Shown: piece after piece, positions 12,212 through 64,000 of the stretch
How the letters are laid out: each line of letters opens with the position of its first letter
Numbering within the stretch: position 1 is the stretch's first letter
NCBI GenBank assembly: GCA_030272155.1
Contig: CP126202.1
Coordinates: 930,001-994,000 of the forward strand
Length of the DNA: 64,000 nt
Origin: Tetradesmus obliquus
Lineage: Eukaryota; Chlorophyta; Chlorophyceae; Sphaeropleales; Scenedesmaceae
Reading direction: 5' to 3'
The notes under the pieces: generated by a model
The model's database searches: none
Told to the model about the DNA's origin: nothing
The model's input: only the letters and a program-made list of their open reading frames with translations
Made by a program: the position numbers and the translations under genes

Positions 12212-12829
12212 TCACGCAGCGCTGTGCTCTTTCGCATCAACACGGCTGCCACGGCACCAGCTGCCAAGTCCCACCCCGTTGCAGCTAAGTGCCAGCGCAA
12301 GCGTCTGATTGACCACAGCAGCAGCAAACTTGCGCCCAAACAGCGGGCAGTGACTGCCCAGCGGGGCATAGCCGGCTGCCACCAGCCAATTGCTATCACC
12401 CTTGACATGCAGCTCCTCTTTCTGCTGCTGCTGCTGCTGCTCCTGCTGATGCTGCTGTGCATCCTGCAAGCCATTAACACTCTGCTGATGGTCTATCGCC
12501 AGCAGCTGCTCGTGCCGGCCCCACTCACTGCCAGCCCTGCGCTTGCCTGCTGCAGCTGCACCTGCTGTTGCACTACTGCTGCTGCCACCCTCAGCACTGC
12601 TGCCATCGGCCACGCCTGATGCCAGACTCTCCAGTGGTTGGAAGATGGTGGCTGCTGCTGACCTGGCGGCAGCAGCAGCATCACATGCAGCTGCCTGCCC
12701 CAGGCTTGTGCTGCCGAGCTGGCGACCGGCCCTCATGCTGTGCAGCAGCGCTGGTGTTATCTCTGCAGCTTTGAACTCCTTGGGGTGCCAACCCCCAGCA
12801 CTCCAGTCGGCGTAGTGGCTGAGGCCCTG

Positions 12830-12901
<72 letters not shown>

Positions 12902-14113
12902 GGCAGTCATCATTACGGATGCCATTGGACGCCACGAACATTGCAGGAGATTCTGTTGCCCACCGTGACTGCTGCATCTGCTCATATCCACCTGCCGGAT
13001 CGCCGCAGGGGGCAGGTCCGGCAGCATGATGCGTAGACAGCACCGCTGCAGAACTGCTTGCAACAGCAGGCAACCCCATGTGTACACATGTGTGTGATTG
13101 ACGAGCACTACCGACTGGCCCTGCTGGCAAGCTCCTGGTTTACCAATTACCAAGTACCAAAGTAGGGCCACAGGCCCACACACTAAGGAGCCAGACACGA
13201 TTCTGGGGTCAAAACAGATCCTACAAAGAAACACAGACACTAAGCGTCGGTTTACACCACGGACTGCCAGGTGAGGCTGCTGCTTTGCTGCCGGCGCTGC
13301 ACCGTGCTGCTGCTGCCTCTGTTGCTGCTCACCTTGATGCCTACCCTCATGGATGCTCTTAGCAAGCGAGATACTACCTCTTAGCAAGGATGCTCTGCGC
13401 ACCCTCACGGATGCTCTTAGCAATGGAGATACTATCTCTTAGCAGGGACGCTCTTAGCACCCTCATGGATGCTCTTAGCAAGGGAGATACTAGTGTAGTA
13501 CACTCGCAGCCCCACCTGGCAGTCCGTGGTGTGGTCCAAGCCATAGCTCGCCATCAAAGTAGCGGCGTAGTGCTCGTCCCTCACACACATGCGGCTGCCT
13601 GCTGTTGCAAGCAGCTGCTGCTGCCCACCGCACATGCCTGCTGCCGCTGCTGCTGCATGCCCTCCACTTTCAAACCCTTGCCTGCTCTCAGCATATTGCA
13701 ACGAAGCAGCACCGCAGCCTCACCTGGCAGTCCGTGGTGTGATCCAAGCCGTAGCTCGCCAGCAGGGACGGCAGGTAGCTACCTAGTGCGCACTATAGTG
13801 CTCATCACCGACACACATGGGTTACTGCCTCAAGCAGTTGCACTGTCCAGACCATAGCTCGCCATCAAGGACGCGATGTAGTGCTCGTCACTCACACACA
13901 TGGGCTACTGCCTCAAGCACACACCCCTAACCTCTAATCTTAAACCACACCCTTACCTGACAATCAGTTGCGCTGTCCAGGCCGTAGCTGGCCATCAAGG
14001 AAGCCAGGTAGTGCTCATCACTCACACACATGGGGCTGCCTGCTGTAAGATTGGTGTAGCAGAAGCTGTGGAACAGCTCGCGCACATGAGTGTCTGCTAC
14101 TGCAAGCATGGCT

Positions 14114-14146
<33 letters not shown>

Positions 14147-15538
14147 CACCATCTTTTTATTTTTATGTCAGGTTGATGTTCTTGTGCCAGGCTGGTGTAG
14201 CAGAAGCTGTGGGACAGCACATGCACGTCGGTTTCCGCCGCAGCCGGCACTGCTGCAGCCAGCCAGCAGCACCAGCAGCAGCACGACCCTAAATGTTTGA
14301 TAGGTTGGTGTTGCAGATGCTGTGGAGTCAGGTTGGTGTAGAGAAGATGTGAACCACCATGTCTTCCACCAACCTGACCCCACAACATCTGCCGTGCAAT
14401 CAGCGGTAGCAGCAGCAACAACATCATAATTGAGGTTGTTGCTGTCCTATTGTTGCGTTGGTGTAGCAGAAGCCATGAACAGCTTGCACACGTGATTGTC
14501 TGCTACAGCTAGCTTCAGTTCAAATGAAGCTATGAACAGCTCGCAAGCGTGAGTGTCTGCTACAGCCAGCTTCAGTACACATGAAGCTATGAACAGCTCG
14601 CACACGTGAGTGTCTGCTACAGCCAGCTTCAGTTCACATGAAGTGCATTTCTGCATGGCGAGCTTGCGCACCAGAGCAGCCTGAGCGCAATCATTGGCAA
14701 CAGCATCAGCAAGTTTCATACAACAACCACAGTAACACACCTGCAGGGCGGCTGAGCGCAAACCACTGGCTGCTCTTGCGCCAGTGCTGCGTGCTGAAGC
14801 AACTGGATGACAGCAATAGTAGCAAAAGGATTAACACCATGCAATCTACCTGCAGGCCGGCTGAGTGCGAACCACTGGCTGCTCTTGCGCCAGTGCTGCG
14901 GGCCAAAGTGAGCTGAGGCCATGTAGGGTCGCCACCTACTGGCGGCGGCAGCAGCAGCAGCAGCAGCAGCAGGGCAGACTGCTTAGAATGCACCGATCAG
15001 CAGCATTGTTGATGTCACTAGTGTTTGCTATAATTGCATCCCAGATCACTGTACATCTCTGCAACTTGAGTGACACAATCAACTAGCCCGTACCAGCAGT
15101 CCCCACCGTCACATTGCCAGTGCGGCATAACAAATATCATGCATCCAGACGTGCACTCGTCACCAGCACCTTGAAACAGAGCCTGGCACTGTGTCTCAAC
15201 AACAGCAACACACACCAAAACCATGCGTGCATACACGCGCACTGCGCAGGGGTGCCCGGCAGCCAGCCATGCAGCCGCCACCAGCACACACATGGCCAGT
15301 TTCCAATCAAATCCTTGAACAGTGCTCAAAGCAAAACACAGCAACAGTAACTGCACACGCATTGCGCAGGGGTGCCCTGCAGCCAGCCATGCAGCCGCCA
15401 CCAGGCGTAGACGGCTAGGCTGACCGGGATGTTGTTGCGGCGCGCCCACCTGTAGAACTGGCGGTCCTTGCGCAGGTCCACACACGCGTCCAGGCGGCTC
15501 AGGGGCTCAGACAGTAGTTGCGCCCAGATGACCTGGCG

Positions 15539-19285: not shown

Positions 19286-20834
19286 TCAGCTGGCGAACAT
19301 GGCTTCCAGCTCTGCAGGAACGTTCCGTTCCTCGTCTGCTGCCTCCGCCTCTGGGTTTGTCTTGCAGGAGTGGGCATCAGGGTAACAGTCAACATACACC
19401 TTGCAAGGTGCAGCAGTGTACAGCAGCGGCAGCGCCGGAGGCAGCAGCAGCAGCAGCAGCAGCTTAGCAGGGCGCAGCAGCTGTCTGAGGCGGCATCACG
19501 AACACAAAACAGCTAGAACACATAACGCGGGCACCTCGCTCTGGCTGGCATCAGCTGAGTTTGGTTTGCTCGTAAATGTGGCAGCGTTGTTGGTGCTTTG
19601 TCGAACAGGATATAAATCAAAACAATAACATGACAACCAAAAGCCCTGTGACAACATATTGGTTGCCTTGCGCACATTGACGACAGCTTCAGCCCATTGC
19701 TTACATGCTGAAAATGTAAACTTGATCCACTTGCTTTGCATGCTTTAAAAACTCTGCAAACTCCATGTTATCATCGCTGCAGCCCAGCTCCTTGAAGCGT
19801 GAGCAGCCCTGAGCATGATGACGACAACACATCACCAAGCATGATGACAGCCATACAGCTGCAACAGTAGTAACAAGGCTAACATCCATACCTTGCGCAC
19901 ATCACTCCAGCCAGCTTTTTGAAGCACACACCGCATCTGATGTCACCAAGAGCACAACACAGCAACAGCAAAACCAAAAACTGGGAAAAACCGGCAAAAA
20001 ACGACTGAATTTCACCAACAAAGGGGTGACTAAATGTCACCTTGCGCACATCACTCCAGCCCAGCTCCTTGAAGCACCCAAAGAATTACTCATACCGACA
20101 GAGATCAGCACCACATAGCAACAACGATAGCTGAAATTGCGTAAAGAACGAAAAATAATCTGAAAACGACTTTTCACCTTGCGCAGGTCGCTCCAGCCCA
20201 GCTCCTTGAAGGACGCGCAGCGCCCGACAGCAAGCATGATGACAGCCATACAGCTGCAACAGTAGTAACAAGGCTAACATCCATACCTTGCACACATCAT
20301 TCGTCATTTGTCATTTTACATCATTCCAGCCCAGCTTTTTGAAGCACACACAGCATCTGATGTCACCTAGAGCACAACACAGCAACAGCCACACCAAAAA
20401 CTGGGAAAAACCGGCAAAAAGTGACTAAATGTCACCGGCAAAGGGGTGACTAAATGTCACGTTGCGCACGTCGCTCCAGCCCAGCTCCTTGAAGCACCCA
20501 AAGTATTACCCATACCGACAGAGATCAGCACAACATGCCAACAACGAGAGCTGAATTGTGTACAGCACGTCAAACAATACGCTGATTTTTTTTTACCTTG
20601 CGCACGTCGCTCCAGCCCAGCTCTTTAAAGCACGCGCAGCGCCACACCGCCCTGCCCCCCTTCATCTCCATGAACAGCTTGCGCGGGTACATGCCATCAT
20701 CACACCACACACTGCCGCCTGCAGCAGCAGCAGGATTGGCAGCAGCAGCAGCAGCAAGTGATCAGCTGCCCCCCTTCATCTCCCTGAACAGCTTGCGCGG
20801 GTACATGCCGTCATCACACCACACACTGCCGCCT

Positions 20835-20867
<33 letters not shown>

Positions 20868-21202
20868 TCGGCAACAGGTTCAGTGCCCCCCCCCTTCATT
20901 TCCATAAACAGCTTGCGGGGGTACATGCCATCATCACACCACACACTGCCGCCTGCAGCAGCAGCAGCAGCAGCAGCAGCAGGATTGACAGCAGCAGCAG
21001 CGGCAAGGTATCAGCTGCCCCTATTCATCGCAACAAACAGCTTGCGTGGGTACATGTCGTCGTCACACCACACACTGCCACCTGCGGCAGCAGCAGCGGC
21101 AGCAGCAGCAGCAGCAGCAGCAAGTGATCAGCTGCCCCCCTTCATCTCCATGAACAGCTTGCGCGGGTACATGCCGTCATCACACCACACACTGCCACCT
21201 GC

Positions 21203-21254
<52 letters not shown>

Positions 21255-23149
21255 TTGACAGCAGCAGCAGCAGCGGCAAAATATCAGCTGCAGCTATTCA
21301 TCTCCATGAACAGCTTGCACGGGTACATACCACCATCGCACCACACGTTGGCACCTGCAGCAGCAGCAGCAGCAGCAGCAGCATCGGAAGCAGCAGGACG
21401 AACAGCATGTTTGTGGTTGTAGGTGCCACCACAGACAACAGCTGCCAAGAGATCCATGATCCAGCAAGTGACACGCCTGCCGCTGGGGCTGCTGTACAGT
21501 TGCTGCTGCTGCTGCTGCTGCTGTCCCTAGGCTGCTCTTCTCCTGCCACTTTTGCCGCTGCGCACCTTCGTCTGCCGTCCACTTGCTGTTACAGGAGGGC
21601 CAGTTGGCCTCCTCTGCCTCCCGCGCTGCTTTCAAGGCTTCACCCTCCTTGGCTCTGCAGACAGTGCAAATTAAGAGTGATCATTTGAAATAATGTTTTG
21701 TTTCACCTGTATGCCCTAATTGTGAATGTTTACCCTGCGGCACTTTGCACGCCGCTGCTCTGCCAGCACTGCTGGCAGTACAGTCATAGTCCTGTGGGCA
21801 CCCCGACATGCACCACATGCATGCACCACATTAGCATGGGGTTTACTCATCGCCACACACGTCCCCTTCCTTACGCGGGTGTTGAGTATGCAGACACCAC
21901 GCGTAGGTCAGTCATTCATGCATGCACCACATTGCCTGCTGGCAAGCAGCAGCAGCCACCGCCGCGCCCCACCCGGCGTGCACCACACTGCCTTGTGCAG
22001 CACATGTCACTGCTGAGACACGTGCAGCACATGTCACTGCTGAGACACGTGCAGCACATGTCACTGCTGAGACACGTGCAGCACATGTCACTGCTGAGAC
22101 ACTGCGGCAGCGCACTGCAGCAGGCTGCAACTCTGCCACCTTATGCACACCACTGCATGTACATTTCAGCTGCAGCATGCCCCACCTGGCGTGCAGGGAG
22201 TCCAGTGCTGCGGTGGCTGCGCCTGCTGCATCGTAGAAGCGGCCTATGAGCTTGCCTTGATAGGTGTAGGTCTGCGGGCACAGCAAATCAACGAAATGTT
22301 GCTTGATAGGTGCATGCACTGGAACAAGTGTAACAGCAGGAAACCTTCAGCGCAGAGTTTCAGGCGCTCATTGAACCCAGGCGAGCCAGCGTGTCACTGC
22401 AAGCAGGCGGCCAGGAACATGCCCGACAAACAACGAAAGCCCTGAACCAAGTTTCAACATAATGCATTTCAAATATTTTCAAATCTCAATTTCAAACTCA
22501 AACTTAAATCATCTCAACCTGCCGCTCACCTTGTGGTAAAAGTCGAGCCAGCCCACCAGCCCCAGGCAGGCCTCAGGGTCCAGCTCAGACACGTCATCCG
22601 TCACGTCACCCACAAAGTCACCTGCAATTGGCGTGCAAAGAACAGGGTTTGGCAGGAGCAGTCAAAGCAGGGTTCAAAGATGCAGCCCCAGGCAGGCCCC
22701 AGGGTCCAGCCCGGACACATCATCCGTCACGTCACCCACAAAGTCGCCTGCGGCACACGCAAGATACACAGCACACACAGGATACGGGCAAGACAGGTAC
22801 ACTGATGGTCACCAAGCAAGCCATGTATCCTTTCTGCAGGGTCCAGCTCAGACACGTCATCCGTGATGTCACCCACAAAGTCGCCTGCGGCACACACACA
22901 CAGAGCATTGACTAGGGCCTGATAATGATCACCAGGCAAGTAGCTTATCATCCTTGCCTCCGCGTGTAGTCCTGACATGTCAACGATTGCGTCGGCCACC
23001 AGCACACACGAAGCCTGCTGCCGTCAGTGCGCATTTTGCAACACGCTCAACACATCATATTGAGCTCAATGCAGTGCCAGCCCCCACCAGTGATGAAACT
23101 CTTGCTGCCATCGGTGCCTGCAAAGTGGCCGTAGCCCTCCCCGGCACCT

Positions 23150-25207: not shown

Positions 25208-26296
25208 ATGCAGCTGGCGGGCGAAAGCAGCTTCTGCTTGTCTCAAAATGTGACATATGGGCACAGGGTATATGATCCAGGTCAGTGCGCTGTCAAACAA
25301 GGCAGCGTTCACGATGCCTGCAACCTGAGACTGCTACATTATAAAGACGCAGTTTCCCAGCTGCTGCAGCCGATGTTGCATCTGTTTGCTTGTCAAAGCA
25401 GTATATAATTGCCGCCTGGTACACTATGGCTGGCAGGGTTTCACGAGCGCTGACAGCGGCACCCATGTGACCCCCCTCTGCTGCTGTGTCACCACTGCTG
25501 CACTGTGTCATCACGTCAGCGGGCGCAGCAGTCTTCCCATTTTACACCGTAGTAAAGATACATTGGTTGATACACGTTCAACCTTCTGCTGTGTACCGTC
25601 TGGTGCTGCTTGCTGTCCCTGCAGACACGCTCAACTGGTGCCCTGTGCCGGGCGGGGGCGCAGATGCACTGCTGTTTGCAGGACTGGCAGTCTTCTGCAG
25701 CTGCGCCCTCTACTCCAAACTGTCTGCAGTGTGGGTGCTGCTAGCAGGTGCGGTCCTGCTGTCAGCCACTTCATGTGCGCTAGCAGACACGTTTCTGAGA
25801 ATGTGGGGCAAACAACGCTGGCTAGGCAGGCCAGCCTGCAGGTCGGGCGTGGCCGGCCAACTGCATGCGCTACATAGCAACTGCTGCACTTATAGGGGCA
25901 CCAACAGATGAAGCCGGGTGTTGGCAGAGCACGACAAGTGCAGCAGCAGCAGCAGCAGCAGCAGGATGCAAGCATGCCTCACTGGCAAGCAGTGCACCAT
26001 CTGTTGGCACAGCTATCAGGCTGCAACCAGGTGCAGGCTGTGAAGCCTGCATGTGTAGGAAGGCAGGCAGGCAGCAGCAGCAGCAACAGCAGCAACAGCA
26101 GCAGCAGCAACAGCAGCTGCCAATGCAGCATGCACAGCTGATAGGTATCATGTGCACAGCTGAGCCATTCAATGGCAGTGCTGCTGCTGCTGCTGCTGCT
26201 GGTGCAGGTGCACTGTTCCAGGTGGCCAATGTCTACTTCAACATGAACCACTTCAGCAACGCGCTCACCATCTGGCTGCTCTTCTGCTGCCGCTGC

Positions 26297-26350
<54 letters not shown>

Positions 26351-27466
26351 TGCTGCTGCAGGCGCGCTGTTCCAGGTGGCCAATGTCTACTTCAACATGA
26401 ACCACTTCAGCAACGCGCTCACCATCTGGCTGGGCATGCACCCCAGCACCATCTTCTTCCAGATCTTCCTGCCGCCGCTGCTGCTGGACAGTGCAGTGAG
26501 GGTGGACTTCTTCCTGTTCAAAAAGGTGCGTCTTTTTTGATATATAAGGCATGGTTTAGGGTATAACAACGCGGTTGAAGCAGTGGCGCGGTGGGCTAGT
26601 TGTGAACTGCAGCGGTGTTGGCACACACGTGTTGCCAGCGCTGCATGTTGTTGTGTCTGCTGCACTAGCAGATGGCCGCGCACTGCCTCATCCCCGTTTC
26701 AACCTGCACTCCGCTGTAAAAAACGGCTGCTTCCTCCGCTGTAAAAAAATCTGTGGTGCTGCCTCATGCAGATGGCCGCGCACTGCCTCATCTTTGCTTT
26801 GCTAAATGTGCGGTCAGTACAGTGGCGTTCATCCCCCTCATGCTGTACTACCTCAACTTGAACAAGACAGATCGCCACACACCCTTGTTGCCCGTGCGCT
26901 GCATGTGTTCGTGTCTGCTGTGCTTGCAGATGGCGGCGCACTGCCTCATCTTTGCTTCGCTGAATGTGCTGGTTAGTACGGTGGCCTTCATCCCGCTGAT
27001 GCTGTATGGACTGGACCTGGCAGCAGCAGGCTGGCGGCCCATTGATGCAGCACTGTTTGGTGCCATCCTGGGTTCAACAGATGCTGTGGCGGTTACAGCC
27101 ATTTTGAAAGCAGGTGCGTATGGTGTGCGTGCTGGCAGGCAGCTCCAGCAGTAGGTGTAGTGGCTGTGTTTGTGGCTGCTCCTCAAATCAAAGCAGCTGC
27201 TTGAGTTGTGCAAAAGAGCGAGGCACTGATGTTGCATGTATTCTGGTGGCTTCCGCAAAGCATCTCAATACACTTGTTCCATAGCTGCTGCTGCTGCTGC
27301 CGCGGCTGCTGCTACTGCTGCTGCTGCTGCTGCCGCTGCTGCTGCTGCTTCAGGTGGCGTCCCCGAGATGCTGTCAACCCTCCTTGAGGGGGAGATCGTT
27401 CAACGATGCATCCTCTATCGTGCTGTTTGAGATCTTCCTGCACATGGGCATAGCTCACTGATAATG

Positions 27467-27564
<98 letters not shown>

Positions 27565-27884
27565 CAGGTGGCGCCCCCGAGATGCTGTCAACCCTCCTTG
27601 AGGGCGAGTCCCTGTTCAATGACGCCTCCTCCATCGTGCTCTTTGAGATCTTCCTGCACATGGGCATGGCCGCTGACAGCAGCGGTGCTGACGTCAGCCT
27701 GACAGGGGCCGCCTGGGGCATACTCAAGCTGATCGGATGGCTATCCGTGACAGGCGCGGCGGCTGGCCTGGCCATGGGCTTGATCACAAGGTGGGTTGTC
27801 ACTAACATGTTAGTAACATGTTGGCGACACTTGTTTTGGATCAGCTGGGCTGCAGGTTGATGTGTAGGGCATCCTGAAAGCTGA

Positions 27885-27919
<35 letters not shown>

Positions 27920-28038
27920 GCAGGCTTCTGCTATAGCGGCTGCACCTTCCTTATGCTTGGTGTTGCCAGGTATGCGGCAGATTCTTTGCTGTAGCATGTG
28001 CACGGTCATACTTCTGCTGCTGAGAGGAGTTGCTGCTG

Positions 28039-28087
<49 letters not shown>

Positions 28088-31000
28088 GCAGGTTGCTCTT
28101 CAAGCTGCTGCACCGGCGTCACGTGCCGCCGCCAGTGGAGGTGGCGGTGTCCCTGGCAGGAGCTTACACAGTGTACCTCTGCACAGGTGCGGCTCGATTT
28201 GGATAAGACATTGCAATTGTGCTTTACTGGCATCAAGGGCATGTACGTGCTGTCCATGTCTGCTTTGGGTTGCACTCGTTGATCAACTGCCAATCGTTGA
28301 GGTGCTTTCATCGACACGTTTTGCGCATGTTGCTGCTGCTGCTGCTGCTGCTGCTGTTTGGATGGCTGCAGAGTACTGCATGCATGGCTCTGGTGTCATT
28401 GCCGTGTTGGCAGTACGTGGCTACACTGCAGCAATCAACACCTCACCCCACTGCTGCTGCTCCCGCTGCTGCTGCCGCTGTTTGATTGCCTGCAGAGTAT
28501 TATGTGCATGGCTCTGGTGTCATTGGCGTGGTGGTGTATGGGCTCTATGGGGCCAGCAGCTACCTCTGGAACTTCAGCAGCAAAGGCATGCGCCAGCAGG
28601 TGAGATATCTCTGAACAAAGGTTTGCATTTTATGTTGGCAGTTGTATCCTATATTTTGTCGTCAGGGCTGCACGGGGCCAGCAGCTACCTCTGGAACTTC
28701 AGCAGCAAGGGCATGCGGCAGCAGGTGGGCAGTTCACAGTACTGCAGTCGTGTTGTGTGCTAGTGACTCTGCTGTCAATTGTCAGCTGTGTGGGCCAGCA
28801 GCTACCCTCTGGAACTTCAGCAGCAAGGGCATGCGGCAGCAGGTGTGGTTGAGACTGAACAGAGGCTTTGCTTCTGTGCTGACCAGCATTGCTATGAGAA
28901 TAAATAGGCTGCGCTTACATGGCGGGGCCCTAAAAATTGGGATGAGAGAAGCCAACTGCCGTGGCGCAAACTTGACCTGCCACTCTCAGCCGCATGTGCC
29001 AGAGATTCTCCAGCACGTTTGGGTTGAGGTGCAGGAGCAACCCAAGTCTCAACTAAATTGGCATGAATAGAAGCCACACGTGCCGGTCACTCCCCAGCAG
29101 TGCCGGCTGTGGCCGCTGTGGTGAACCAGCAACTCAGTTGCAGTAGTACAGCAACCATGCTGACGTACTGACGCTTGTGTACCGCCATCACGAAGCAGGT
29201 CGCACACACACTAGCTGTAATAATGATTCCTACTGTTATTTCAGGATGAGCGAGTTTTGTTCAGGGTTGCCGCAACTATGCTATGATAGCAGTTGAGGGT
29301 GTAAGCATAGCAGTTACGGAGCATGCTTGGCGACGGTAGACCGGCGAAGTGTACTAGCATGATCATGACGATGTTGCCACCACACACGGCCTTGTTTTCT
29401 TTAATACGCCGCACGCAAATTACTGCTGGCATTCCTCACTGCATCACGATGTGTATCGCAACAGCCGGGCACTGCTGATCACACTACAGTCACTCCTGAT
29501 CACACTACAGTCACTCCTGATCACACTACAGTCACTCCTGATCACACTACAGTCACTCCTGATCACACTACAGTCACTCCTGATCACACTACAGTCACTC
29601 CTGATCACACTACAGTCACTCCTGATCACACTACAGTCACTCCTGATCACACTACAGTCAGCGTAAATATGGCTCTGCTGGCAAGTTTTCTTCTTCTGCT
29701 GGCATCACATGTGCGTCCGCTTTGGCCTCCACGCCGGCGGCATGTATGATTGTGTTTTCTGTACAGTTTGGTGTGTTTATTACGTATACTAGTTAAAGCG
29801 AGTATGGCAAATGACAGTCATTCCGTGTAGCTCTGCTCAGGCAGTACAGCGTGCGTCGCAGTAGCTCAGTTATCTAACAACATAGTTGCACGAAACGTGG
29901 GGTCCGGCTGTTTATGAAATGAAACGAAACGTTTAAAACGTGCGTTTTAAACGCCTTCAGTGTGAAACGCTGTATCTAAACGGCAGCTCTAGTGGGGCTC
30001 AGGCGTTTGAATGCAGAACCCCTCGTTACTCGGCCTAGCGGCCCGTTCAGGTACTCAGGGCTCTTCAAAACATTTACTGTATATTTTTGTTGGTATTTGA
30101 ATACTTGTTGTTCTCCTATCAGTCACCGACATCCCTGATACGCCGAGCAGCCCTCCAGCTGCTGTGGTACCTCGCTGCACATGGTCCGTGGACATCAACG
30201 CATTCACACGATATCACGATTAATAAGTAGATTACGCACTGGCACCTCAATTCATTTTGACTTTGCGAAGAGCTGTCGTGCGACGATCGCCAAGTATGTT
30301 CAAGTGTTGGAGCTGTACTGCTGTCAACTAGTCAAGCCTGCTGCCGTGCCTTGGCAGCCCTCCAAGCCCGGCAGGCACAGTTCTGGGGTCAATTAATGAC
30401 TATAAAGACTAGTATTGATCATTTACAAACAATTAAAATGCAAAGAATTGATGTAACTGGCCTCTACATGCCTCTAGAGTGCATACTGTGACATGGCGTT
30501 TCAGCAGCGTTTCAGCAGCGTTTCAGTCCAGGCACTGGCGTTTTAAACGCGTTTAGAAACGAAACGTTTCGTTTCAAACGAAACGTTTCGTGCAACTATG
30601 TCTAACAACCTTCTATCAAAAAGTATAGAATTTTCTAAAAAAAATAGTAGCAGTGGCATACCGAGATATCCAGGACTTTGTTTTCTCTACCAAGCTCACG
30701 TTGTCCTCAAATGCATTCAAATAATCCGGACTTAGCAAACGCAACAAATTGCGATTGCAGGTACTGCCGGAAAACGCCTGTGACAGGCACACCAGCAACA
30801 CAAACCTATATCCCGCCTGATTCCGACCGCCTACGCGCTCGTACACCATATTCATACTTTTCAGATGAATTTATGCTGTGTTTTACCTAAAAATACGGCA
30901 TCTCTGCGTACAGCCCACAAAAATAAGAACACTACTGCTGCCACATCATGACAATGGGGTCATCACCACCAATGCCGTGCCTGCTATTTGATGGGGTATG

Positions 31001-33781: not shown

Positions 33782-33819
<38 letters not shown>

Positions 33820-37733: not shown

Positions 37734-37764
<31 letters not shown>

Positions 37765-39090: not shown

Positions 39091-39149
<59 letters not shown>

Positions 39150-40377: not shown

Positions 40378-40413
<36 letters not shown>

Positions 40414-40659: not shown

Positions 40660-40691
<32 letters not shown>

Positions 40692-41208: not shown

Positions 41209-41260
<52 letters not shown>

Positions 41261-41354
41261 AGAGGTCCGGCCCGCCAGGCGTGTTCATCGTGCTGTCAGG
41301 GCTGGTGAAAGTGGAGCTGCTGCGCTGCAAGACACCAACCATTGTTGACGTTCA

Positions 41355-41410
<56 letters not shown>

Positions 41411-42205
41411 AGAGGTCCGGCCCTCCTGGCGTGTTCATTGTTCTTTCAGGCCTGGTCAAGGTGGAGCTGCTGCGCTGCAAGACACCCACCAGCTACTTTG
41501 TGGGAGTGGGCGGCAGCGTGGGCTACCTGAGCAGTTTGTTAGGCAGAGACCTGCCAGGTGTAGCGCTGGTGGCGGCCTTTGCGCAGGTGAGGACAGCTCT
41601 TGATGTAGTCATTTGCAACTACAGCATAGATCTGGTCTTGCAATTGGCTCATGATAAGGATGCCATGGGCGGCAAGCTGCCCACGCTGCGCAGTGTGGGC
41701 TACCTGAGCAGTTTGTTAGCCAGGGACCTGCCAGGAGTGGCAGCCTTTGCGCAGGCGAGGCGTCATACGATACCATGCACACAGGTCGCTGCTAATGAGT
41801 GTTAGTGTGGGGCTATCTCAGCAGGCCGTTGGGACGGATTTGCCAGGGGTGGCGTTGGTGGCACCCACCAGCTACTTTTGGGGCGTGGGTGGCAGCGTGG
41901 GCTACCTGAGCAATGTTGTTAGGCAGAGACCTACCAAACGTGGCGCTGGTGGCAGCCTTTGCGCAGGCGAGGCTGAGTGACTGATTTGCGCTATATGTAT
42001 ACTCCATCTGACATAGATGCTCAAACCAATGTCGAGAATGATCGTGGGGCTACCTGAGCAGGTGAGGCACACTATGCCGCTGAACCTCACTGATGCACCT
42101 GCCCATATGGCTGCTGGCCATAACCCTTGCTGAAGAAATGCCACCTGCCGACTTTTTGTTGCGCGCCGCTTTTCCGTCACAGAGCAATGCACGTGAGCGG
42201 GGGCC

Positions 42206-42240
<35 letters not shown>

Positions 42241-45200: not shown

Positions 45201-45686
45201 CAGGCAGCAGTGGCAGAGGCAGCACTGGCTCTGGTGATGGAGCGTGCTGCTGCTGCTGCCGTGCTGCTGCGTGGCCTGCTGCACACTGCAGACCTGGTCA
45301 CAGTCGCCCCAGGTGGGCGCCACTTTCATTCTGTTGTTTTTGTTGCTTTTGTTACTTTTGTCGCATATAATTGTTATGTTGTACGTTGCCGGCTGGTGGG
45401 GAAAAGGACTGCTTCTGCTGGCATGTAGTGATGTGTCCTGTTGCATGCTGCAACCTGCCTTTGCGGTAGAGATGCAGCAGACACTCGTCACCTGTTGTGT
45501 ACACCTGCACCATTTGCCTTGTGCGCGCACACGCCACTCACTGCAAGTGCTCTGCTGCTACCCCGCCGCTGCTGCTGCTGCTGTTCTGCAGGCCAGCAAG
45601 TCAGCCAGGGCTCTACAATGGTGCTGCTCAACGGCTGCCTGCGCCTGCACAACAGCAGCAGGTTCAGCAGCAGCCTGCCACTGGAC

Positions 45687-45718
<32 letters not shown>

Positions 45719-46620
45719 GCCTGCTGCTGCTGCTGCTGCTGCTGGCAAGGCTGCAGCTTGCAGCAGCGCTGTCATGAAGCAGTTCAATGCACCTACACTG
45801 TTGGCGTGGGCACCAGAGCTGTTTGAGCAGCTGGAGGACAGGTGCGCGCAATCTGGTTGTTATTTTTATTGTTATGTTGTTGACTCACCAACATTGATGA
45901 CAATTCAACACTGCTGGTGTGAGGGCCTGAGCTGTTTGAGCAGCTGGGGGACAGGTGAGATTGTGCTGCAGGTGTTTGTTATCATTTTGTTGTTTATAGT
46001 ACTACTGTTGTCACTGGCGTGGTTGGCGTGGGCACCAGAGATGTTTGAGCACCTGGAGGACAGGTGCGGGCGATCTGGTTGTTATTGTTATTATGTTATC
46101 TCGTTGATTCACCGACATAGTTGGCAATTTAACACGTCTGGTGTGAGGGCCTGAGCTGGTTGAGCAGCTGGAGGACAGGTGAGGTTGTGCTGCATGTGTT
46201 TGTTATTCTGTTGTTATTTATAGTACTATTGTTGTCACTGGCGTGGTTGGCATGGGGGCCAGAGCTGTTTGAGCAGCTGGAGGACAGGTGCGGGCAATCT
46301 GGTTGCTACTGTTATTGTTATGCCATTGATTCACCGACATTGTTGGCATTTTCACACGTCTGGTGTGAGGGCCTGAGCTGGTTGAGCAGCTGGAGGACAG
46401 GAGACGCTGTGCTGCAGGTGCTGCAGGTGTTACTGTTATTCCGTTGTTGTTATACATAACATTGTTGGCATTGTTGTATGACTGAAACGGCCTGCCAAAA
46501 CTTGCATGTGCATAGCCATTTGTTTCAAAACTTGAAGTGCTGTGTGCAGTGCTCCATGAGAGCTCGCTGTGCAGGCCAAATAGTCAGATGCTCCTGGACA
46601 TTGTTGTGATCACTAATTGG

Positions 46621-46670
<50 letters not shown>

Positions 46671-46964
46671 AGGTATGCCCTGCAGTTTGCGGTCTACACT
46701 GCCGGCCCCAAGGGGGCGCTGCTGCTGGTGACACCCAGCGCAGGTGGCAGCAGCAGCAGCAGCAGCAGCGAAGCAGGAGACACAGCAGCAGCCGGCGGCG
46801 ATGCAGCAGACAAGAAGAAGCAGCCACAGCAGCAGCAGCTGCAGCAGCAGCAGCAGCGGAGCAGGCATGGCGAGTTGCGGCAGCAGCCTGAGCGGTTGAG
46901 CTCTGTGCGGCCGCTGCACAAGACTGCAGCATCAGCGGTGGGGCCCGATCAGGATGCGGTGTGA
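25208..46964 (+). CDS. SOS1: SOS1-like plasma-membrane Na+/H+ antiporter (CPA1 family, with cyclic-nucleotide-binding-like domain)
   Basis: Predicted exporter of Na+ in exchange for H+ at the plasma membrane. Exons: 25208-25280, 25625-25747, 26362-26525, 26930-27113, 27568-27790, 28092-28186, 28496-28599, 32542-32633, 33276-33537, 33822-33958, 34590-35202, 35376-35778, 36241-36509, 36870-37130, 37476-37546, 37769-37859, 38565-38664, 39155-39237, 39664-39774, 39892-40041, 40416-40480, 40699-40777, 40907-40987, 41413-41586, 42318-42653, 44539-44659, 45061-45312, 45592-45841, 46673-46964. Every phase matches; 1752 aa. Transporter core: ADALLFAGLAVF, FFQIFLPPLLLDSAV, GSTDAVAVTAILKAGGAPEM, LEGESLFNDASSIVLFEIF (CPA1 acidic motif), GSGVIGVVVYGLYG, AAGGLRGGLALILAQTVL. 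The long cytosolic half has DDDEILRGVDWSAV and a CNBD-like segment (GVFIVLSGLVKVELL ... GSVGYLSSLLG, about residues 1279-1336). Plant SOS1 is about 1150 aa; the excess is Ala/Ser/Gln tracts. The first exon (MQLAGESSF) is inferred from phase and consensus donor only. Confidence 0.9.
26206..26276 (+). repeat. Acceptor-side partial copy of SOS1 exon 3
   Basis: CAG followed by ALFQVANVYFNMNHFSNALT and WL, then CTG repeats. The intact exon at 26362 begins with the same residues and continues into GMHPSTIFFQIF. Confidence 0.93.
26670..26855 (+). repeat. Acceptor-side partial copies of SOS1 exon 4
   Basis: Two upstream copies of the exon 4 head (MAAHCLI near 26671; MAAHCLIFA near 26771, the latter with a shifted frame further on). 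The intact exon is at 26930. Confidence 0.88.
27354..27445 (+). repeat. Frameshifted upstream copy of SOS1 exon 5
   Basis: Repeats GGVPEMLSTLLEGE, then loses bases where the intact exon encodes SLFND, giving a frameshift. It ends with the equivalent of IFLHMG and a stop. The intact copy starts at 27568. Confidence 0.93.
28371..28430 (+). repeat. Acceptor-side partial copy of SOS1 exon 7
   Basis: A CAG acceptor followed by a diverged copy of the exon 7 head (EYCMHGSGVIAVL in the exon's frame). The intact head at 28496 reads EYYVHGSGVIGVV. Confidence 0.9.
28670..28845 (+). repeat. Donor-side partial copies of SOS1 exon 7
   Basis: Two downstream copies of the exon 7 tail: GASSYLWNFSSKGMRQQ plus GTGGGC, and a variant with ATLWNFSSKGMRQQ plus GTGTGG. 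The intact tail ends at 28599. Confidence 0.92.
29473..29660 (+). repeat. 21-bp tandem array (9 copies)
   Basis: Nine nearly perfect 21-bp units (core CTGATCACACTACAGTCAC) in the large SOS1 intron 7. Open in frame on both strands but no sign of coding. There are no spacers, so it is not a CRISPR array. Confidence 0.97.
29881..30600. mobile_element. hAT-like non-autonomous transposon (MITE), 720 bp
   Basis: Terminal inverted repeats CATAGTTGCACGAAACGT begin at 29881 and, inverted, end at 30600 (18 bp perfect). The element is flanked by a direct 8-bp duplication TCTAACAA at 29873-29880 and 30601-30608. An 8-bp target duplication with these ends is typical of the hAT superfamily. Subterminal GAAACG/CGTTTC and TTTAAACG motifs repeat at both ends. 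No transposase reading frame is inside. It lies in SOS1 intron 7 and is AT-richer than its surroundings. Confidence 0.92.
31158..31619 (+). CDS. Possible nested small secreted protein gene in SOS1 intron 7
   Basis: Uninterrupted 153-codon frame starting ATG. The first 32 residues include a hydrophobic stretch (AAVTLVAIALASPVTVA) that could be a signal peptide. A Gln/Arg-rich helix and a C-terminus with three Cys (CLDLYTNSLHFTACINNN, then CKQLLE) follow. No family recognised. It lies in the longest intron of the window, which otherwise holds repeats and a MITE. It may be a real nested gene, a transposon-derived frame, or chance. Confidence 0.25.
   Translation: MPPHNSGVWPVLGCHAAVTLVAIALASPVTVANKHVTVTATGPDRQPAAAVPNEEQLLAQSLQAVRQRQQQQAATRRALALQQRRSAPSSTVNVLGSPFVSAPIGFQPSADVAATMAGAAVGSGVSNCLDLYTNSLHFTACINNNRTCKQLLE
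32428..32463. repeat. Two adjacent perfect palindromes
   Basis: A 22-bp perfect palindrome (core TGACGTCTAGACGTCA, 32428-32449) abuts a 16-bp palindrome centred on CCAGATCTGG (32448-32463). They lie about 80 bp upstream of SOS1 exon 8 and could form hairpins. Confidence 0.9.
32699..32770 (+). repeat. Donor-side partial copy of SOS1 exon 8
   Basis: Copy of the exon tail (CINGMVFFFVGASVTNFLI plus AG and a GTGAGA donor). The intact exon ends at 32633 with GTGGGG. Confidence 0.93.
32892..33235 (+). repeat. Acceptor-side partial copies of SOS1 exon 9
   Basis: Two copies, starting after acceptors at 32892 and 33086, of the first about 115 bp of exon 9 (SLTGELFQGGSAAALLTLKC and on to LRWLLMTLE). 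The intact exon starts at 33276 and continues into APLLSLVGPRLSW. Spacing is 194 and 190 bp. Confidence 0.95.
34022..34430 (+). repeat. Donor-side partial copies of SOS1 exon 10
   Basis: Three downstream copies of the exon 10 tail (APLLGALMSVLRLNKTTPAH; APLLGLLMSALELNETTPAQ; ALGLNKTTPAH), each near a GTGAG-type donor. The intact tail is LLGPLMTALGLNKTTPAQRH, ending at 33958. Confidence 0.92.
36720..36800 (+). repeat. Acceptor-side partial copy of SOS1 exon 14
   Basis: CAG followed by GGRNEALGGALAAAQRAWSI, upstream of the intact exon at 36870, which has the same start and continues to a Gln tract and an acidic end. Confidence 0.93.
37970..38310 (+). repeat. Partial copies of SOS1 exon 16 (tail) and exon 17 (head)
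   Basis: A donor-side copy of the exon 16 tail (EKPLDLWRT plus GTGAGC, ending 38018) is followed by acceptor-side copies of the exon 17 head: IGADIRRRGATST near 38155 and IGADIKRRG near 38278, plus a poorer piece near 38050. Intact exon 17 starts at 38565. A donor-side copy of its tail (YQTRLLLLTTG) lies near 38750. Confidence 0.9.
39012..39345 (+). repeat. Acceptor- and donor-side copies of SOS1 exon 18
   Basis: An upstream head copy (GGGFLVAWLR near 39014) and a downstream tail copy (VLDDRLGI plus GTGAGT near 39310-39340) bracket the intact exon 39155-39237. Confidence 0.9.
41100..41345 (+). repeat. Acceptor-side partial copies of SOS1 CNBD-like exon
   Basis: Two upstream copies of the exon 24 head (PGIFILLSGLVKVELL near 41120; RSGPPGVFIVLSGLVKVELL at 41273). 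The intact exon starts at 41413. Each follows a (CTG)n run. Confidence 0.92.
41685..41985 (+). repeat. Donor-side partial copies of SOS1 CNBD-like exon
   Basis: Downstream copies of the exon 24 tail: VGYLSSLLARDLPGVAAFAQ near 41693, a piece near 41830, and PTSYFWGVGGSVGYLSN near 41865-41975. The intact tail ends at 41586 with LVAAFAQ. Confidence 0.9.
42172..42260 (+). repeat. Acceptor-side partial copy of SOS1 exon 25
   Basis: Degenerate copy of the exon 25 head (SNARERGPLLLL ... HLPMRL in the exon's frame) with a long CTG run inserted. The intact exon starts at 42318 with GNALGRGPLLLHLPMRLL. Confidence 0.85.
42690..44200 (+). repeat. Large donor-side array of SOS1 exon 25 tail (about 13 copies)
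   Basis: The exon 25 tail (LLDRMGDSVVQHMAAHVEVA plus VQ and a GTGGGT donor) recurs downstream about 13 times in 1.5 kb. Four consecutive units beginning at 42891, 43004, 43117 and 43230 are almost identical with an exact 113-bp period; others are more diverged (for example near 43345 and 43550). A last fragment occurs near 44420. The 113-bp unit is not a multiple of three, so it cannot be added to the reading frame unnoticed. Confidence 0.95.
44735..44865 (+). repeat. Donor-side partial copies of SOS1 exon 26
   Basis: Two degenerate copies of the exon 26 tail (EALLGSSSSSALAAAG plus GTGAGC near 44740-44788, and a poorer one to 44860). Confidence 0.8.
45905..46405 (+). repeat. Donor-side partial copies of SOS1 exon 28
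   Basis: About five downstream copies of the exon 28 tail (LAWAPELFEQLEDR plus donor; the intact copy ends at 45841), near 45925, 46035, 46150, 46265 and 46375. The copies alternate between a better and a poorer version, suggesting duplication of a dimer. Confidence 0.9.
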
Positions 46965-47007
46965 GCAGCAGCAGCAGCAGCAGTGGGGCCTGTTTAAGAT
47001 CAGTGTG

Positions 47008-47038
<31 letters not shown>

Positions 47039-47111
47039 GCAGTGGGGCCCGATCAGGATGCGGTGTGAGCAGCAGCAGCAGCAGCAGTGGGGCCTGATTA
47101 AGATCAGTGTG

Positions 47112-47142
<31 letters not shown>

Positions 47143-47173
47143 GCGGTGGGGCCTGATCAGGATGCGGTGTGAG

Positions 47174-52632: not shown

Positions 52633-52694
<62 letters not shown>

Positions 52695-55362
52695 GGCTGG
52701 CGCTGTGGCGGGTGACAGCAGCAGCACCCTCAAGCGCTCCAGGAGGCTGATGCTGGCAGGCAGTGGAGGGCAGGCCTTGAAAAACAAAAAGAATGATGAG
52801 CAGGGGCAGCAGCCAAGCGAAGCAGCTGCGCCGGCTGAGGCTGCTGCTGCAGGTGCTCTAAGAAGAATAAAGGAGAATGAATGAGATATGTGTTCATACA
52901 AAGGAGCAGTCTCACGGGCAGTGATGGGCAGCAGCAGGGCGCTCCTTGTCTTTCAGCCTTTTTTAGAATAAAGATTGCAGGCCTCTGTGTGTTGGTCAGC
53001 AGAAGAGCGCACGCGGTAAAGGAAAGCATGCTGAAGACACCACAGATGTCCAGTGTTGGCAACAACTCGAGTGGCCTGTTCGCTGTTGCAGGGGCTGCTG
53101 CTGCTGCTGCTGCTGCTAGCGGCGGCGCACTGCTGGCGGGTGCATCCGTGACAGTCAACAAGCGCAAGTGGAAGGACGGCGAAGATAATGAAATTGATCG
53201 GCCTGAGCGCGAGATCACAGTAGAGGCCCTCAGGGCGGTGAGTCAGCACAAGTTTGAAGTTGTTGTCATGTTTGGCACAAGCTGATTAGCTGTAACGGCA
53301 GAGGACGCCATGTTGCGAGATGACAGCCGAAGGCCTTCAATGTGGGCAGCACCGCCATCCAACCAATTGCATAGCTTCCAACCACTCTGTCACCAATCTA
53401 TCACCAAGCTGCTGCTGTCTGTGCCACGTATGTGCCTGCAGGTCTTCTACCTGGACGCAGAGGCAGCACGGGCAGCTTGAATGTGGGCGAAACCGCCTTG
53501 AAACCGACTGCATAGCTTTACACCACGCCATCACCAAGCTGCTGCTGCCTGTGCCACGTATGTGCCTGCAGGTCTTGCACCTGGACGCAGATGCAGCAAG
53601 GCTGAGCTTCAATGTGGGCGAAACCGCCTTTCAACCAATTGCATAGCTTCCAACCACAACACGCATGTGCCTGCAGGTCTTCACCCTGGACGCAGAGGCA
53701 GCACGGGCGAGCTTGAATGTGGGCAAGAGTGTGTTTCAGGCGGCGCAGCGGGAGTTGGGCATCGAGCGCTGGCCCTACCGCAAAATTATGGGGCTGCGCA
53801 GCATGCTGAGCTACTACGAGGCAGTGGGGCCCGAGGAAGATGTGGCATGGCTGCGGTGAGTGATGCACAGCTGCGCGATGGTTGCACCCCGTGCGTATCA
53901 GCATGCTGCTTGGTCGCCATGGCGACACGGCGCCATGTGCATCTGTGTGCGCGGCATGCTGTGCTACTACGAGGCAATGGGGCCCGAGGAAGATGCGGCA
54001 TGGCTGCAGTGAGTCATGCATACCTGCGTGATTGCCATGCTGATAGGCATCCCGTGCGTATCAGCATGTTGCATGGTCAGCATGTGCATTTGTGTGCGCG
54101 GTGTGTTGCGCCGCTAGAGTGAAGTGTTGCCTGCGGGGGATGCGGCATGGCTGCAGTGAGTCATGTGCGGCTCATTCAACTACTCTGCAGTACTCTACTA
54201 GTGGTGTTGCTGGTATACAAGTGGCTGTCTTCCTAGTTTAATGCGGTGTGCGGCATGCTGAGCTACTCAAAGGCGGTGGGGCCCCAGGAAGATGCGGCAT
54301 GGCTGCGGTGAGTCATGGCTTGTGCTGAATTTTAGCGTTGTGCGCGGCGTGCTGCGGCATGACGTGGCTACGGTGCGTAGCGCTCAGCTGCGCTATGGTT
54401 GCTGCATGTGCATGGCTGTGCTGCACGGCCGGCATTTGCACATCGGTGCGCGGCGCGCTGCGCTACAAGCAGTTGTGCATCTGCCATGCCTGAAAAACCT
54501 GTCATCTTACGAAGCTGTGGGGCCTGCGGAAGACGGGGCATAGCGCACGTTCGCAGCTCTGAAGACTTAGCTGCTGCTGCTGCTGCTGCCGCAGGGAGCT
54601 GGAGCAGCAGCTGATGCTGTACCCCAACATGGAGCTGCTGCGGGATGGGCCGAGCCGGCACGCACAGCTGTACAGGGTGAGCAGTGCTAAATGCGGCACA
54701 GCACCTCATGTGTGCCGCATCTGCAGCCCCTTACCAGGGAACTAAGGTACTGCCAGCATAGCGTGTGCATTGCACAGCTGTGCGGGGTGAGCAGGGAATC
54801 AGCCCAGCACCTCATGTACGCCAAATGCGCAGCCGCTTATGCAGGATGATTGAAGCAAGTGTGCAGTCGTAGTGACATGTAGCCGGTGCGCTACGCACAG
54901 CTACGTGGGGTGTTAGTGAGTGAGTGAGTGAGTGAGTGACTACCTTGGCAGCTCTGCAGCTTCTGGGTAAGAAGGTGTGTGTGGCCAGGGGCGGCGCCCC
55001 TGGGCTCCACGCCCTCTACCCGTCCACTTGCGCCTTAGGGCACAAGCGGGGCGTGTGTTAGTGAGCAGGGATGCAGCTGAGCACAGCTCATGTGCAGCAT
55101 GTCGGCAGCCAATTACCAACGAAGTTTGCACAGCATGTGTGCAATTTTCTAATGTAAGCCCACTATGCAGCCGGAGGCAGCGTGGTGTCGCATGCATTCG
55201 TCTTGCTGTTTACCTTGATAGATTGTGTATGCAGCTTTAGGTGTTGCCTGCAGAGGCTTCCCTGCTGGCATGGCATGCCCAGCTGCTGTCCTTTTACTGC
55301 TGCTCGCACTGTGTTTGCGCCTGCAGAGGTATGAGAAGCGCGACAGGCAACTCTACCCGTGA
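48517..55362 (+). CDS. RWP-RK domain transcription factor, right paralog
   Basis: Predicted nuclear DNA-binding regulator of the RWP-RK (RKD-like) class. Exons 48517-48567, 48878-49036, 49303-52852, 53092-53237, 53677-53855, 54595-54676 and 55327-55362; all phases match; 1400 aa. It starts MADLAALQHSLLPLD. The 3.55-kb third exon carries conserved islands shared with the left paralog (YLPPAAWCSSND, VFIWVAEALQELGFKAS, MPCLVMDVCGTGKR, KVPRLVQEVSRLQL, QQWSDPLLWQKAFLTV) among Gln/Ala tracts. Exon 4 has a basic patch NKRKWKDGE. Exon 5 is the RWP-RK core: VFTLDAEAARASLNVGKSVF, AAQRELGIERWPYRKIMGLR, SMLSYYEAVGPEEDVAWL. The protein ends RYEKRDRQLYP. Partial exon copies surround exons 5 and 6. Target genes cannot be inferred. 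Confidence 0.88.
53334..53665 (+). repeat. Acceptor-side partial copies of right RWP-RK exon 5
   Basis: Two copies of the exon 5 head with acceptor (starts 53442 and 53572) and a leading fragment near 53334. The first lacks one base and stops early (VFYLDAEAARAA then TGA). The second reads VFHLDADAARLSFNVGETAF in the exon's frame apart from one codon (TTGCAC), then diverges. The intact exon starts at 53677. Confidence 0.93.
53950..54545 (+). repeat. Donor-side partial copies of right RWP-RK exon 5
   Basis: Five downstream copies of the exon 5 tail (SYYEAVGPEEDVAWL plus donor), ending near 54009, 54156, 54308, 54373 and 54542. The first two retain CTGCAGTGAGTCATG; the last ends in GCATAG. Confidence 0.92.
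54770..55100 (+). repeat. Donor-side copies of right RWP-RK exon 6 and a GTGA microsatellite
   Basis: Three degenerate copies of the exon 6 tail and following intron (HAQLYR, donor, then CAGCACCTCATG) at about 54773, 54890 and 55040. A (GTGA)n run lies at 54910-54940. Confidence 0.85.
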
Positions 55363-55554: not shown

Positions 55555-55588
<34 letters not shown>

Positions 55589-58330: not shown

Positions 58331-58375
58331 TCAGGGGTGGTGAACTGCTCTGTTCGTATCACACAAGTCAGGTCA

Positions 58376-63032: not shown

Positions 63033-63748
63033 TCAGTTTAGCACCAGCTCTCCAAACAAGGCCCCCGCTTGCTGCTGCAGATCCTCCGCCTGCTGCAGCA
63101 GCCCCTGCAGCTGCTGCACAATCTGCCCAAATGTGGGGCGCTGCTGAGGCTCCTCCAGGCAGCAGGCCTCAGCTAGGTCTTTGTAAGGCTGGGGTACAGC
63201 AGCGCTAAAGCGCAGCCGGGCACCGCGGTTCATGACGTCATTCAGGATCTCAGCCATGAGGCGGCCCTTCCATGGCTGAGCTGCCATGATGGTCTCCCAC
63301 ACTGCAGTAGTGTGTGGCGGTGGCAGCAGCAGCAGCAGCGGCAAGTGCTAGCTGTTGGCAACAATGGTTGACAACATCTGTTCAAGATCTCAGCCATCAG
63401 GCGGCTCTTATAAGGCTGTGCAATCATGATCGTCATTCACACTGCACAACACATGGTGTAACACAATAGCAACTTCAGGGCAGACGAAAGTGAGGGTTCC
63501 CGGGTGCAAGCTGTAGACGTCACGTCAGAAGTTCTGGTAGCAGCTGTCCTCATCAACTGCACTTAGTCACGTACTTCAAAAAGGCTTTTGCTGAACCAGA
63601 TCCTGTGTGTGGCCACTCACTGATGACACCAAAGCTGAAGACGTCCGCCTGCTTGCTCAGCCTCCCACTTCGCATCAGCTCGGGTGCCTGGTGGCTGACT
63701 GTGCCCATGGCGGTGGTTGACAGATGGGTGAAGCCCTCATTTATCACC
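63033..63748 (-). CDS. Protein kinase, C-terminal part of the catalytic domain (partial)
   Basis: Two 3' exons of a kinase gene whose 5' part lies beyond 64000: 63748-63621 and 63301-63033, joined in phase 1. The first runs from just after the expected DFG segment: VINEGFTHLSTTAMGTVSHQ, APELMRSGRLSKQADVFSFG (activation loop, APE motif, subdomain IX). The second has MWETIMAAQPWKGRLMAEIL and PQPYKDLAEACCLEEPQQRP (subdomains X-XI, with the conserved Arg), then a Gln-rich helix and stop. The motif style suggests a tyrosine-kinase-like (TKL) Ser/Thr kinase. Substrate unknown. Both exons have upstream partial copies. Confidence 0.88.
63365..63436 (-). repeat. Acceptor-side partial copy of kinase last exon
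   Basis: IMIAQPYKSRLMAEILN, compare the intact IMAAQPWKGRLMAEILN; it lies upstream in gene order. Confidence 0.88.
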
Positions 63749-63804
63749 CTGAGGAATGCAAAACCATAACCACAGATCAAAGAGGTGTCAGGGGACATGT
63801 TGTA

Positions 63805-63875
63805 ACAAGGCGGCTGATTGTACCCATGGCGGTGGATGAGAGGTTCGTGAAGCCCTCATTTATCACCCGGTGCAA
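63805..63875 (-). repeat. Acceptor-side partial copy of kinase activation-loop exon
   Basis: RVINEGFTNLSSTAMGTIS, compare the intact RVINEGFTHLSTTAMGTVS starting at 63748; it diverges before the APE motif. Confidence 0.9.
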
Positions 63876-64000
63876 TTGGAAATAGCAGCAGCAGCACATG
63901 GGTCAGCTAGCATGTCGCGTAAAAACAAGCCGACTATGTGCATGGCGTGGTGAATGATTCAAGGGAGGATGCACAGGTTGATTGCTTTGCCATGTTTGAA

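Follow-up and report, generated by a model that had tools for sequence, protein, structure and literature searches.

The stretch of Tetradesmus obliquus DNA analyzed here, called the window below, covers 64 kb (positions 930001-994000 of contig 12; the genome contains 104,662,953 bases in 17 contigs) and carries several genes whose introns contain additional partial copies of the ends of the adjoining exons. These genes include one for an SOS1/NHE-type Na+/H+ exchanger, whose hand-trimmed model matches solved NHE and SOS1 chains (PDB), and others with Pfam matches to the Branch (GT14), RWP-RK and kinase families. The four labels had been proposed in an earlier note made from the sequence alone, and they are supported here, while the label CYB5D2 given to a further gene was not confirmed: no PDB match was found, nor any Pfam match for the hand-trimmed model. 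Pfam also finds a CDC27/POLD3 domain among the predicted models. No family reached the gathering score in an Rfam scan of the window. The arrays of exon-end copies are real, widespread, and uneven between regions.

The sample comprised 324 kb in nine blocks: the window and eight further blocks (five of 40 kb and three of 20 kb), which were picked by fixed coordinates with their sequence not inspected beforehand. Exons were modeled with a generalized hidden Markov model (HMM) written for the purpose and self-trained on the nine blocks; repeats were not an input. After training, its consensus was CAG/GTGAG for the donor and CTGCAG/G for the acceptor, the slash marking the junction.

Self-BLAST revealed 117 local direct repeat pairs in the window. 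With a threshold of at least 45 bits and an offset of at most 1500, direct pairs outnumber inverted pairs by 125 to 2 in the window and by 287 to 3 in the nine blocks, and this vast excess rules out chance similarity. The direct pairs group into 126 clusters, 47 of them in the window, and 87 of the 126 have a smallest offset of 100-159 bp. From 230 pairs, a non-redundant set of 107 clusters was derived, with at least 20 bp of overlap with a predicted exon and an offset of at most 300; exon-free clusters are excluded by construction. A member with more exon beyond the alignment was defined as the anchored copy.

The earlier note had described a consistent direction, in which copies upstream of an exon contain the acceptor and the exon head and copies downstream contain the exon tail and the donor. 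This rule is followed by 87 of the 107 clusters, 49 being exon tails copied downstream and 38 exon heads copied upstream; the remainder are 5 clusters of the opposite direction, 9 whole-exon clusters and 6 exon-only clusters. Between positions 12212 and 63880 of the window, it holds for 28 of 37 exon-overlapping clusters (15 heads upstream, 13 tails downstream), with two donor-type clusters on the other side, four whole-exon and three exon-only clusters as exceptions. Thus, the copies themselves are confirmed by self-BLAST and by exon models built without regard to repeats, also beyond the window, whereas the statement that no clear exception exists was too strong, as a 53-bp whole-exon copy illustrates. 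After duplication across an acceptor, it is of necessity the downstream copy that stays attached to the rest of the exon; after duplication across a donor, it is the upstream copy. The consistent direction therefore follows from the geometry of tandem duplication together with the loss of coding changes; it is not independent evidence, and direction alone is no proof of splice-site targeting. The arrays in the window are as follows (window coordinates; exon coordinates likewise).

25208..47145, plus strand: SOS1/NHE-type Na+/H+ exchanger gene (gene model, PDB homology; 3' end uncertain), bearing many arrays
26200..26278, plus strand: acceptor-type copy of the head of exon 26362-26525, offset 154 (repeat cluster against exon model)
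27350..27454, plus strand: acceptor-type copy of the head of exon 27568-27790, offset 214
32883..33203, plus strand: acceptor-type array with units of about 194 bp, preceding exon 33276-33537
36668..36789, plus strand: acceptor-type copy for exon 36870-37130, with 8 synonymous and 0 nonsynonymous changes
37964..38029, plus strand: donor-type copy of the tail of exon 37787-37859
38998..39042, plus strand: acceptor-type copy, 45 bp identical to the acceptor and head of exon 39155-39237; spacer unduplicated
39307..39344, plus strand: donor-type copy of the tail of exon 39155-39237; intervening spacer unrelated
41094..41341, plus strand: acceptor-type copies with units of about 150 bp, belonging to exon 41413-41586; the nearest copy has 9 synonymous and 0 nonsynonymous changes
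41690..41972, plus strand: donor-type copies of the tail of exon 41413-41586
42318..42653, plus strand: anchored exon whose tail and donor are copied downstream
42699..44449, plus strand: donor-type array with exon tail, donor and intron head repeated, unit about 113-117 bp
45908..46473, plus strand: donor-type array with units of about 111 bp, following exon 45592-45841
20775..21356, minus strand: acceptor-type array with units of about 117 bp, preceding exon 20597-20718 in gene direction (gene with the unconfirmed CYB5D2 label)
13505..13904, minus strand: decayed copies of the tail of GT14 exon 13957-14111, following it in gene direction, one with an in-frame TAG
14458..14643, minus strand: head copies upstream of GT14 exon 13957-14111, repeated with a period of 57
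14848..14903, minus strand: exception, the whole 53-bp exon 14741-14793 copied with its donor
52693..52768, plus strand: donor-type copy of the tail of exon 52379-52606 (RWP-RK gene)
53335..54317, plus strand: copies flanking RWP-RK exon 53677-53859 on both sides
63381..63446, minus strand: acceptor-type copy for kinase exon 63045-63301
63809..63876, minus strand: partial copy of kinase exon 63621-63798, exon-only class

The clusters mostly have the form of direct tandem repeats crossing one exon-intron boundary. Besides the 87 of 107 that involve a single junction in the expected direction, 86 of the 107 have an aligned stretch no shorter than 0.8 of the offset, and in 68 it exceeds 1.1 of the offset; these values come from an unmasked banded permissive alignment that may over-extend, so that the contiguity of 86 clusters is an upper estimate. 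Of the 15 arrays that hold at least three copies, seven have exon-side ends lying within 8 bases of each other, and the offsets step fairly regularly. The nearest copy lies at an offset of 110-149 bp in 63 of 105 arrays and of 100-159 bp in 70. For offsets below 170, the median is 126 on the donor side (n = 47) and 134 on the acceptor side (n = 32), and the lengths of exon part and spacer are inversely correlated (r = -0.62 and -0.51). This compensation indicates that the constrained quantity is the total length of the unit, a property of the duplication, and the narrow spread of the offsets points to a specific process of duplication. Offsets divisible by three are not overrepresented (53 of 171 copies).

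Instability of CTG/CAG tracts was considered as a driver and set aside for lack of a clear association with the arrays. Among donors, a tract lies within 70 nt on the intron side at 6 of 47 with an array and at 103 of 522 without one; among acceptors, the counts are 13 of 32 with an array and 163 of 533 without. CTG-type tracts of at least four units often precede acceptors in all blocks, for example at 39092-39149 and 41356-41410 in the window.

The presence of the copies in mRNA was addressed by comparing hand-trimmed predicted proteins that retain some copies with solved structures. For three enzymes, glutamate-1-semialdehyde (GSA) aminotransferase, formate-tetrahydrofolate ligase and RNase H2A, the homologue offers a single counterpart to segments that the query contains twice. 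The repeated part of the exchanger falls largely between the two stretches that align to solved homologues. Since the doubled segments lack a partner in the homologues, the copies are probably spliced out of the main mRNA, and on these alignments the functional mRNA most likely omits them.

The exon-derived parts of the copies look better preserved than the intron sequence beside them, contrary to what would be expected of sequence that splicing removes; over the comparisons made, identity is 0.89-0.91 in the exon-derived parts and 0.59-0.71 in the flanks. In gapped alignments of copy and exon, identity is about 0.90 in the exon-derived part and 0.59 (donor) or 0.67 (acceptor) in the intron flank, with nulls of 0.48 and 0.53. 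When copies are compared with each other, the exon-derived part gives 0.89 with a flank of 0.60, and 0.90 with a flank of 0.71. Around the junction, ungapped identity was profiled for copies whose alignment reaches to within 6 nt of it. On the donor side it is about 0.89 in the exon, 0.96 and 0.90 at the G and T, 0.88 at the G of position +5, and 0.51 one base further. Toward the intron on the acceptor side, identity declines from 0.91 at a distance of four bases from the exon to 0.57 at 11-20 bases. Intron sequence beyond +5 is alignable in 53 of 102 donor-type copies.

The splice sites in the copies are also kept. The dinucleotide GT is present in 89 of 102 donor copies and AG in 61 of 69 acceptor copies. 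Mean scores are 5.44 for anchored against 4.04 for copied donors and 6.46 against 4.42 for acceptors, and the 10th percentile of the anchored sites is reached or exceeded by 83 of 102 copied donors and 47 of 69 copied acceptors. It is possible that the copies supply alternative splice sites.

Substitutions in the copies are biased toward synonymous ones, with dS of 0.226, dN of 0.059 and dN/dS of 0.26 (0.22-0.32); the synonymous fraction is 0.57 against 0.41 expected for a neutral copy. The excess of third-position changes is 2.60 between exon and copy (95% interval 2.17-3.11) and 2.22 between copies (1.72-2.86). A mixture of constrained and neutral copies (log-likelihood -263.3) gives a better fit than a single class (-269.3); with all copies neutral, the value is -316.2. 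Hypermutable synonymous sites were not supported as a source of the third-position excess: intron rates adjusted for base and CpG predict nearly equal codon positions, again with permissive alignments.

Such a pattern would arise if the copies were working alternative exon ends or small cassette exons, with transcripts differing in the copy used and selection keeping the amino acids. The synonymous excess in both comparisons, the retained and well-scoring splice sites, and the 80 of 171 copies that the gene finder calls exons are all consistent with this explanation. However, stops are per site as frequent as missense changes (dStop/dN 1.17, 0.62-1.74, alongside the dN/dS of 0.26), 19 stops and 49 frameshift gaps occur among the 171 copies, and dN/dS is 0.26 for copies called exons and 0.26 for those not called. 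Multiples of three are not favored in the offsets, and inclusion would insert segments that the homologues of the three enzymes lack. Regular use of the copies as exon ends is accordingly a doubtful explanation, with perhaps a one-in-several chance of being correct.

An account of these observations may be outlined. The genome would repeatedly duplicate sequence head to tail, preferring units of about 110-150 bp, as seen in the length distribution. A unit lying across one splice site would leave a complete exon and a spare exon end within the intron. The spliceosome would pair the outer, exon-anchored sites, so that the main mRNA is unaltered, as the homologues suggest. The intron would gain length and the array could expand, while duplications within exons would be purged. 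The copied exon ends would remain more exon-like than the spacers, and the likeliest reason may be that the copies keep meeting the exon, which would make damaged copies costly; the contact might come through short-range exchange in replication or repair, or through occasional use in splicing. As a whole, with recurrent tandem duplication of about 110-150 bp, copies hidden by splicing, purging of coding changes and copies staying exon-like, this account seems rather probable. Its specific form in which purifying selection acts on the copies indirectly, through sequence exchange with an exon 100-150 bp away so that missense, nonsense or splice-breaking changes in a copy threaten the gene, is advanced tentatively. 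If this exchange does take place, it would mean coding-like conservation in sequence that is never translated, with spacers drifting freely, and introns that grow and persist as exon-templated arrays.

Arrays are distributed unevenly. In the 324 kb, 105 of 1152 predicted exon ends (9%) carry one. Per predicted exon end, the counts are 37/188 in the window, 13/72 in C11, 19/126 in C6, 10/88 in C14, 6/80 in C9, 10/170 in C4, 9/156 in C1, 1/156 in C2 and 0/116 in C3. The difference between C2 and C3 together (1/272) and the six other sampled blocks (67/692) is significant (P = 4e-9). Both of these nearly array-free blocks, C2 (L013-L016) and C3 (L017-L020), are still gene-bearing, with 86 and 67 predicted exons, respectively. 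The median intron is 270 in C2 and 251 in C3, and the medians of the other blocks range from 171.5 to 254.5, so that recognizable arrays are not the sole source of intron length. The near-array-free and array-rich blocks offer a built-in comparison.

The interpretation in the earlier note was that tandem duplications spanning one splice site are hidden by splicing and accumulate, and that those inside an exon are purged. Duplications that straddle a splice site and are hidden by splicing do fit most arrays, but a passive filter alone is incomplete. In its pure form, the passive explanation holds that tandem duplications occur at random and that all intron-compatible ones are equally tolerated, exon-linked ones dominating since the constrained exon stays recognizable. 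The direction and the single-junction form are given by geometry, and stops and frameshifts do occur, as this explanation would have it. Codon-position rates taken from permissive alignments are 0.67, 0.64 and 0.96 of the intron rate and fit a neutral copy of a constrained exon. The synonymous fraction of 0.57 departs from the neutral 0.41, and the comparison between copies, in which no exon is involved, still shows exon-part similarity above that of the spacers as well as the third-position excess.

A masked test bears on the same question. Exons, exon-derived copies and simple repeats were hidden, and offsets of 80-300 were searched; 44 clusters were left, of which 29 are linked to an exon-copy array and 15 are unlinked (10 of the 15 intergenic). 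Of the genic clusters, 23 of 28 are exon-linked, with linkage defined generously, against 0.51-0.54 expected from uniform placement over tolerated positions; this is moderate evidence for a junction preference. A cruder first version gave 34 of 53 exon-linked clusters, and only 7 of its 16 clusters with at least 88% identity are of junction type, no excess over geometry, though that set counted copy-copy hits of exon arrays as intron-only. The passive filter fits only partly: the exon linkage after masking, the better preservation of exon parts and the regional unevenness exceed it. A purely passive origin is therefore considered improbable, even if the possibility deserves serious weight.

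Several further points weigh against the account of recurrent duplication with copies kept exon-like, together with the codon-position rates and the 7 of 16 junction-type clusters just given. In 21 of the 107 clusters, less than 0.8 of the offset is aligned, and 5 of the 15 arrays that hold at least three copies have exon-side ends more than 20 bases apart. The flank beyond +5 is not above the null in 49 of 102 donor-type copies, whose exon identity is 0.893 against 0.908 in the rest; the same is true of the flank in 48 of 69 acceptor copies, where CTG tracts inflate the null. An unalignable flank beside a well-kept exon part implies that such copies are not the product of one recent contiguous duplication. 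By our own arithmetic, a "fossil" model, in which copies were taken from the exon at different times, permits a ratio of third to first and second positions of up to about 1.75, and the interval of the copy-copy ratio, with its lower limit of 1.72, just includes this value free of constraint. Clustering of sharing patterns, as exchange tracts would leave, was significant when all trios were used and with one trio per array (P = 0.0014, neighboring sites kept), but P rises to 0.17, 0.27 and 0.51 after merging sites less than 4 bp apart, and exchange tracts are not claimed. The account itself gives no reason for the preference for 110-150 bp or for the near-absence of arrays in C2 and C3.

The exon anchors, moreover, are ab initio predictions from the self-trained model, and 102 predicted exons resemble copies, i.e., the model sometimes calls copies extra exons; these 102 were not used as anchors in the masked test, in the preservation analysis or in later tests. 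With an ab initio exon set, mis-predicted genes, coding protein repeats or assembly errors come to mind as the source of the whole pattern. However, the copies differ by point changes and indels, the duplicated segments are extra in conserved enzymes, and inverted pairs are nearly absent, so that an artefact is scarcely credible.

Repeated exonic sequence in introns can be compared with several known arrangements. In tandem exon duplication with mutually exclusive splicing, additional exon sequence with splice sites lies beside an exon. The arrays likewise place spare exon sequence with splice sites next to an exon, but they mostly consist of partial exons with one splice site; duplication of a whole exon with both splice sites was found in only 9 of the 107 clusters. 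Introner elements are repeated sequences present in many introns of one genome. The arrays share that property, whereas they were found as matches to their own adjacent exon, which is the way they were searched for.

Boundary-crossing tandem genomic duplication was described as a route of intron gain in the potato RdRp gene (Ma, Lan and Niu 2016, PMC4974935). In that work, the duplication made a new intron and inserted exonic sequence, with RNA-seq evidence, and an 83-bp tandem duplication in the first intron is also described. The arrays are like this case in that a tandem duplication crosses an intron-exon boundary with the splice signals included (acceptor and exon head in potato). They are unlike it in that potato presents one gene with a new intron, whereas here many arrays lie on both sides of exons, are often multicopy and are apparently retained in introns. 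The three conserved enzymes speak against retention of exon copies in the mRNA, which was the outcome in potato. Boundary-crossing tandem duplication is already known; the density and the preserved copies are new. Among the open-access abstracts listed by the literature searches, none describes such arrays in T. obliquus.

Intron gain from tandem duplication of an exonic AGGT segment, referred to as the Rogers type, has been proposed in Drosophila (Lehmann et al. 2010, PMC2891723). Applied here, it would make the introns themselves duplicated exonic segments containing AGGT. The likeness consists in duplication near splice motifs that is masked by splicing, and the donor and acceptor consensus have CAG/G in common. 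In the Rogers type, however, an exonic unit becomes the intron, whereas the unit here often holds a pre-existing intron and a real splice site. The 53 donor copies that include alignable intron past +5 indicate that the intron came first, the other 49 being uninformative, and the copies lie on the side expected of junction-spanning units. An exonic AGGT unit with an intron of unit length was not the pattern found, and a Rogers-type origin is very unlikely.

Intron evolution has been reviewed, in general terms, elsewhere (PMC3488318). The origin of intron sequence and the lengthening of introns free of transposons are an open question that the arrays address. If the preserved exon parts reflect exchange or use in splicing, the arrays would be a natural system for measuring the tolerance of decoy splice sites.

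Some other repeats were observed in the window. A dispersed repeat of about 110 bp lies at about 13140-13250, inside one copy of a GT14 exon tail, and matches at least 37 other sites. By eye, a GGTTTAC direct repeat flanks it, which gives it the look of an inserted small mobile element. In a genome-wide search with positions 12212-14000 of the window only, the best 40 of 384 candidates are mostly this element or triplet repeats. A tandem array of 4.6 copies of a 188-bp unit at 57460-58339 has no predicted exon inside. Near-perfect minisatellites are present at 468-789 (29-bp unit) and 29470-29660 (21-bp unit), in contrast with the decayed exon-end arrays. Positions 37-5796 and about 49275-55860 hold two related genes in opposite orientation with segments similar by eye, the second being the gene with the Pfam RWP-RK match.

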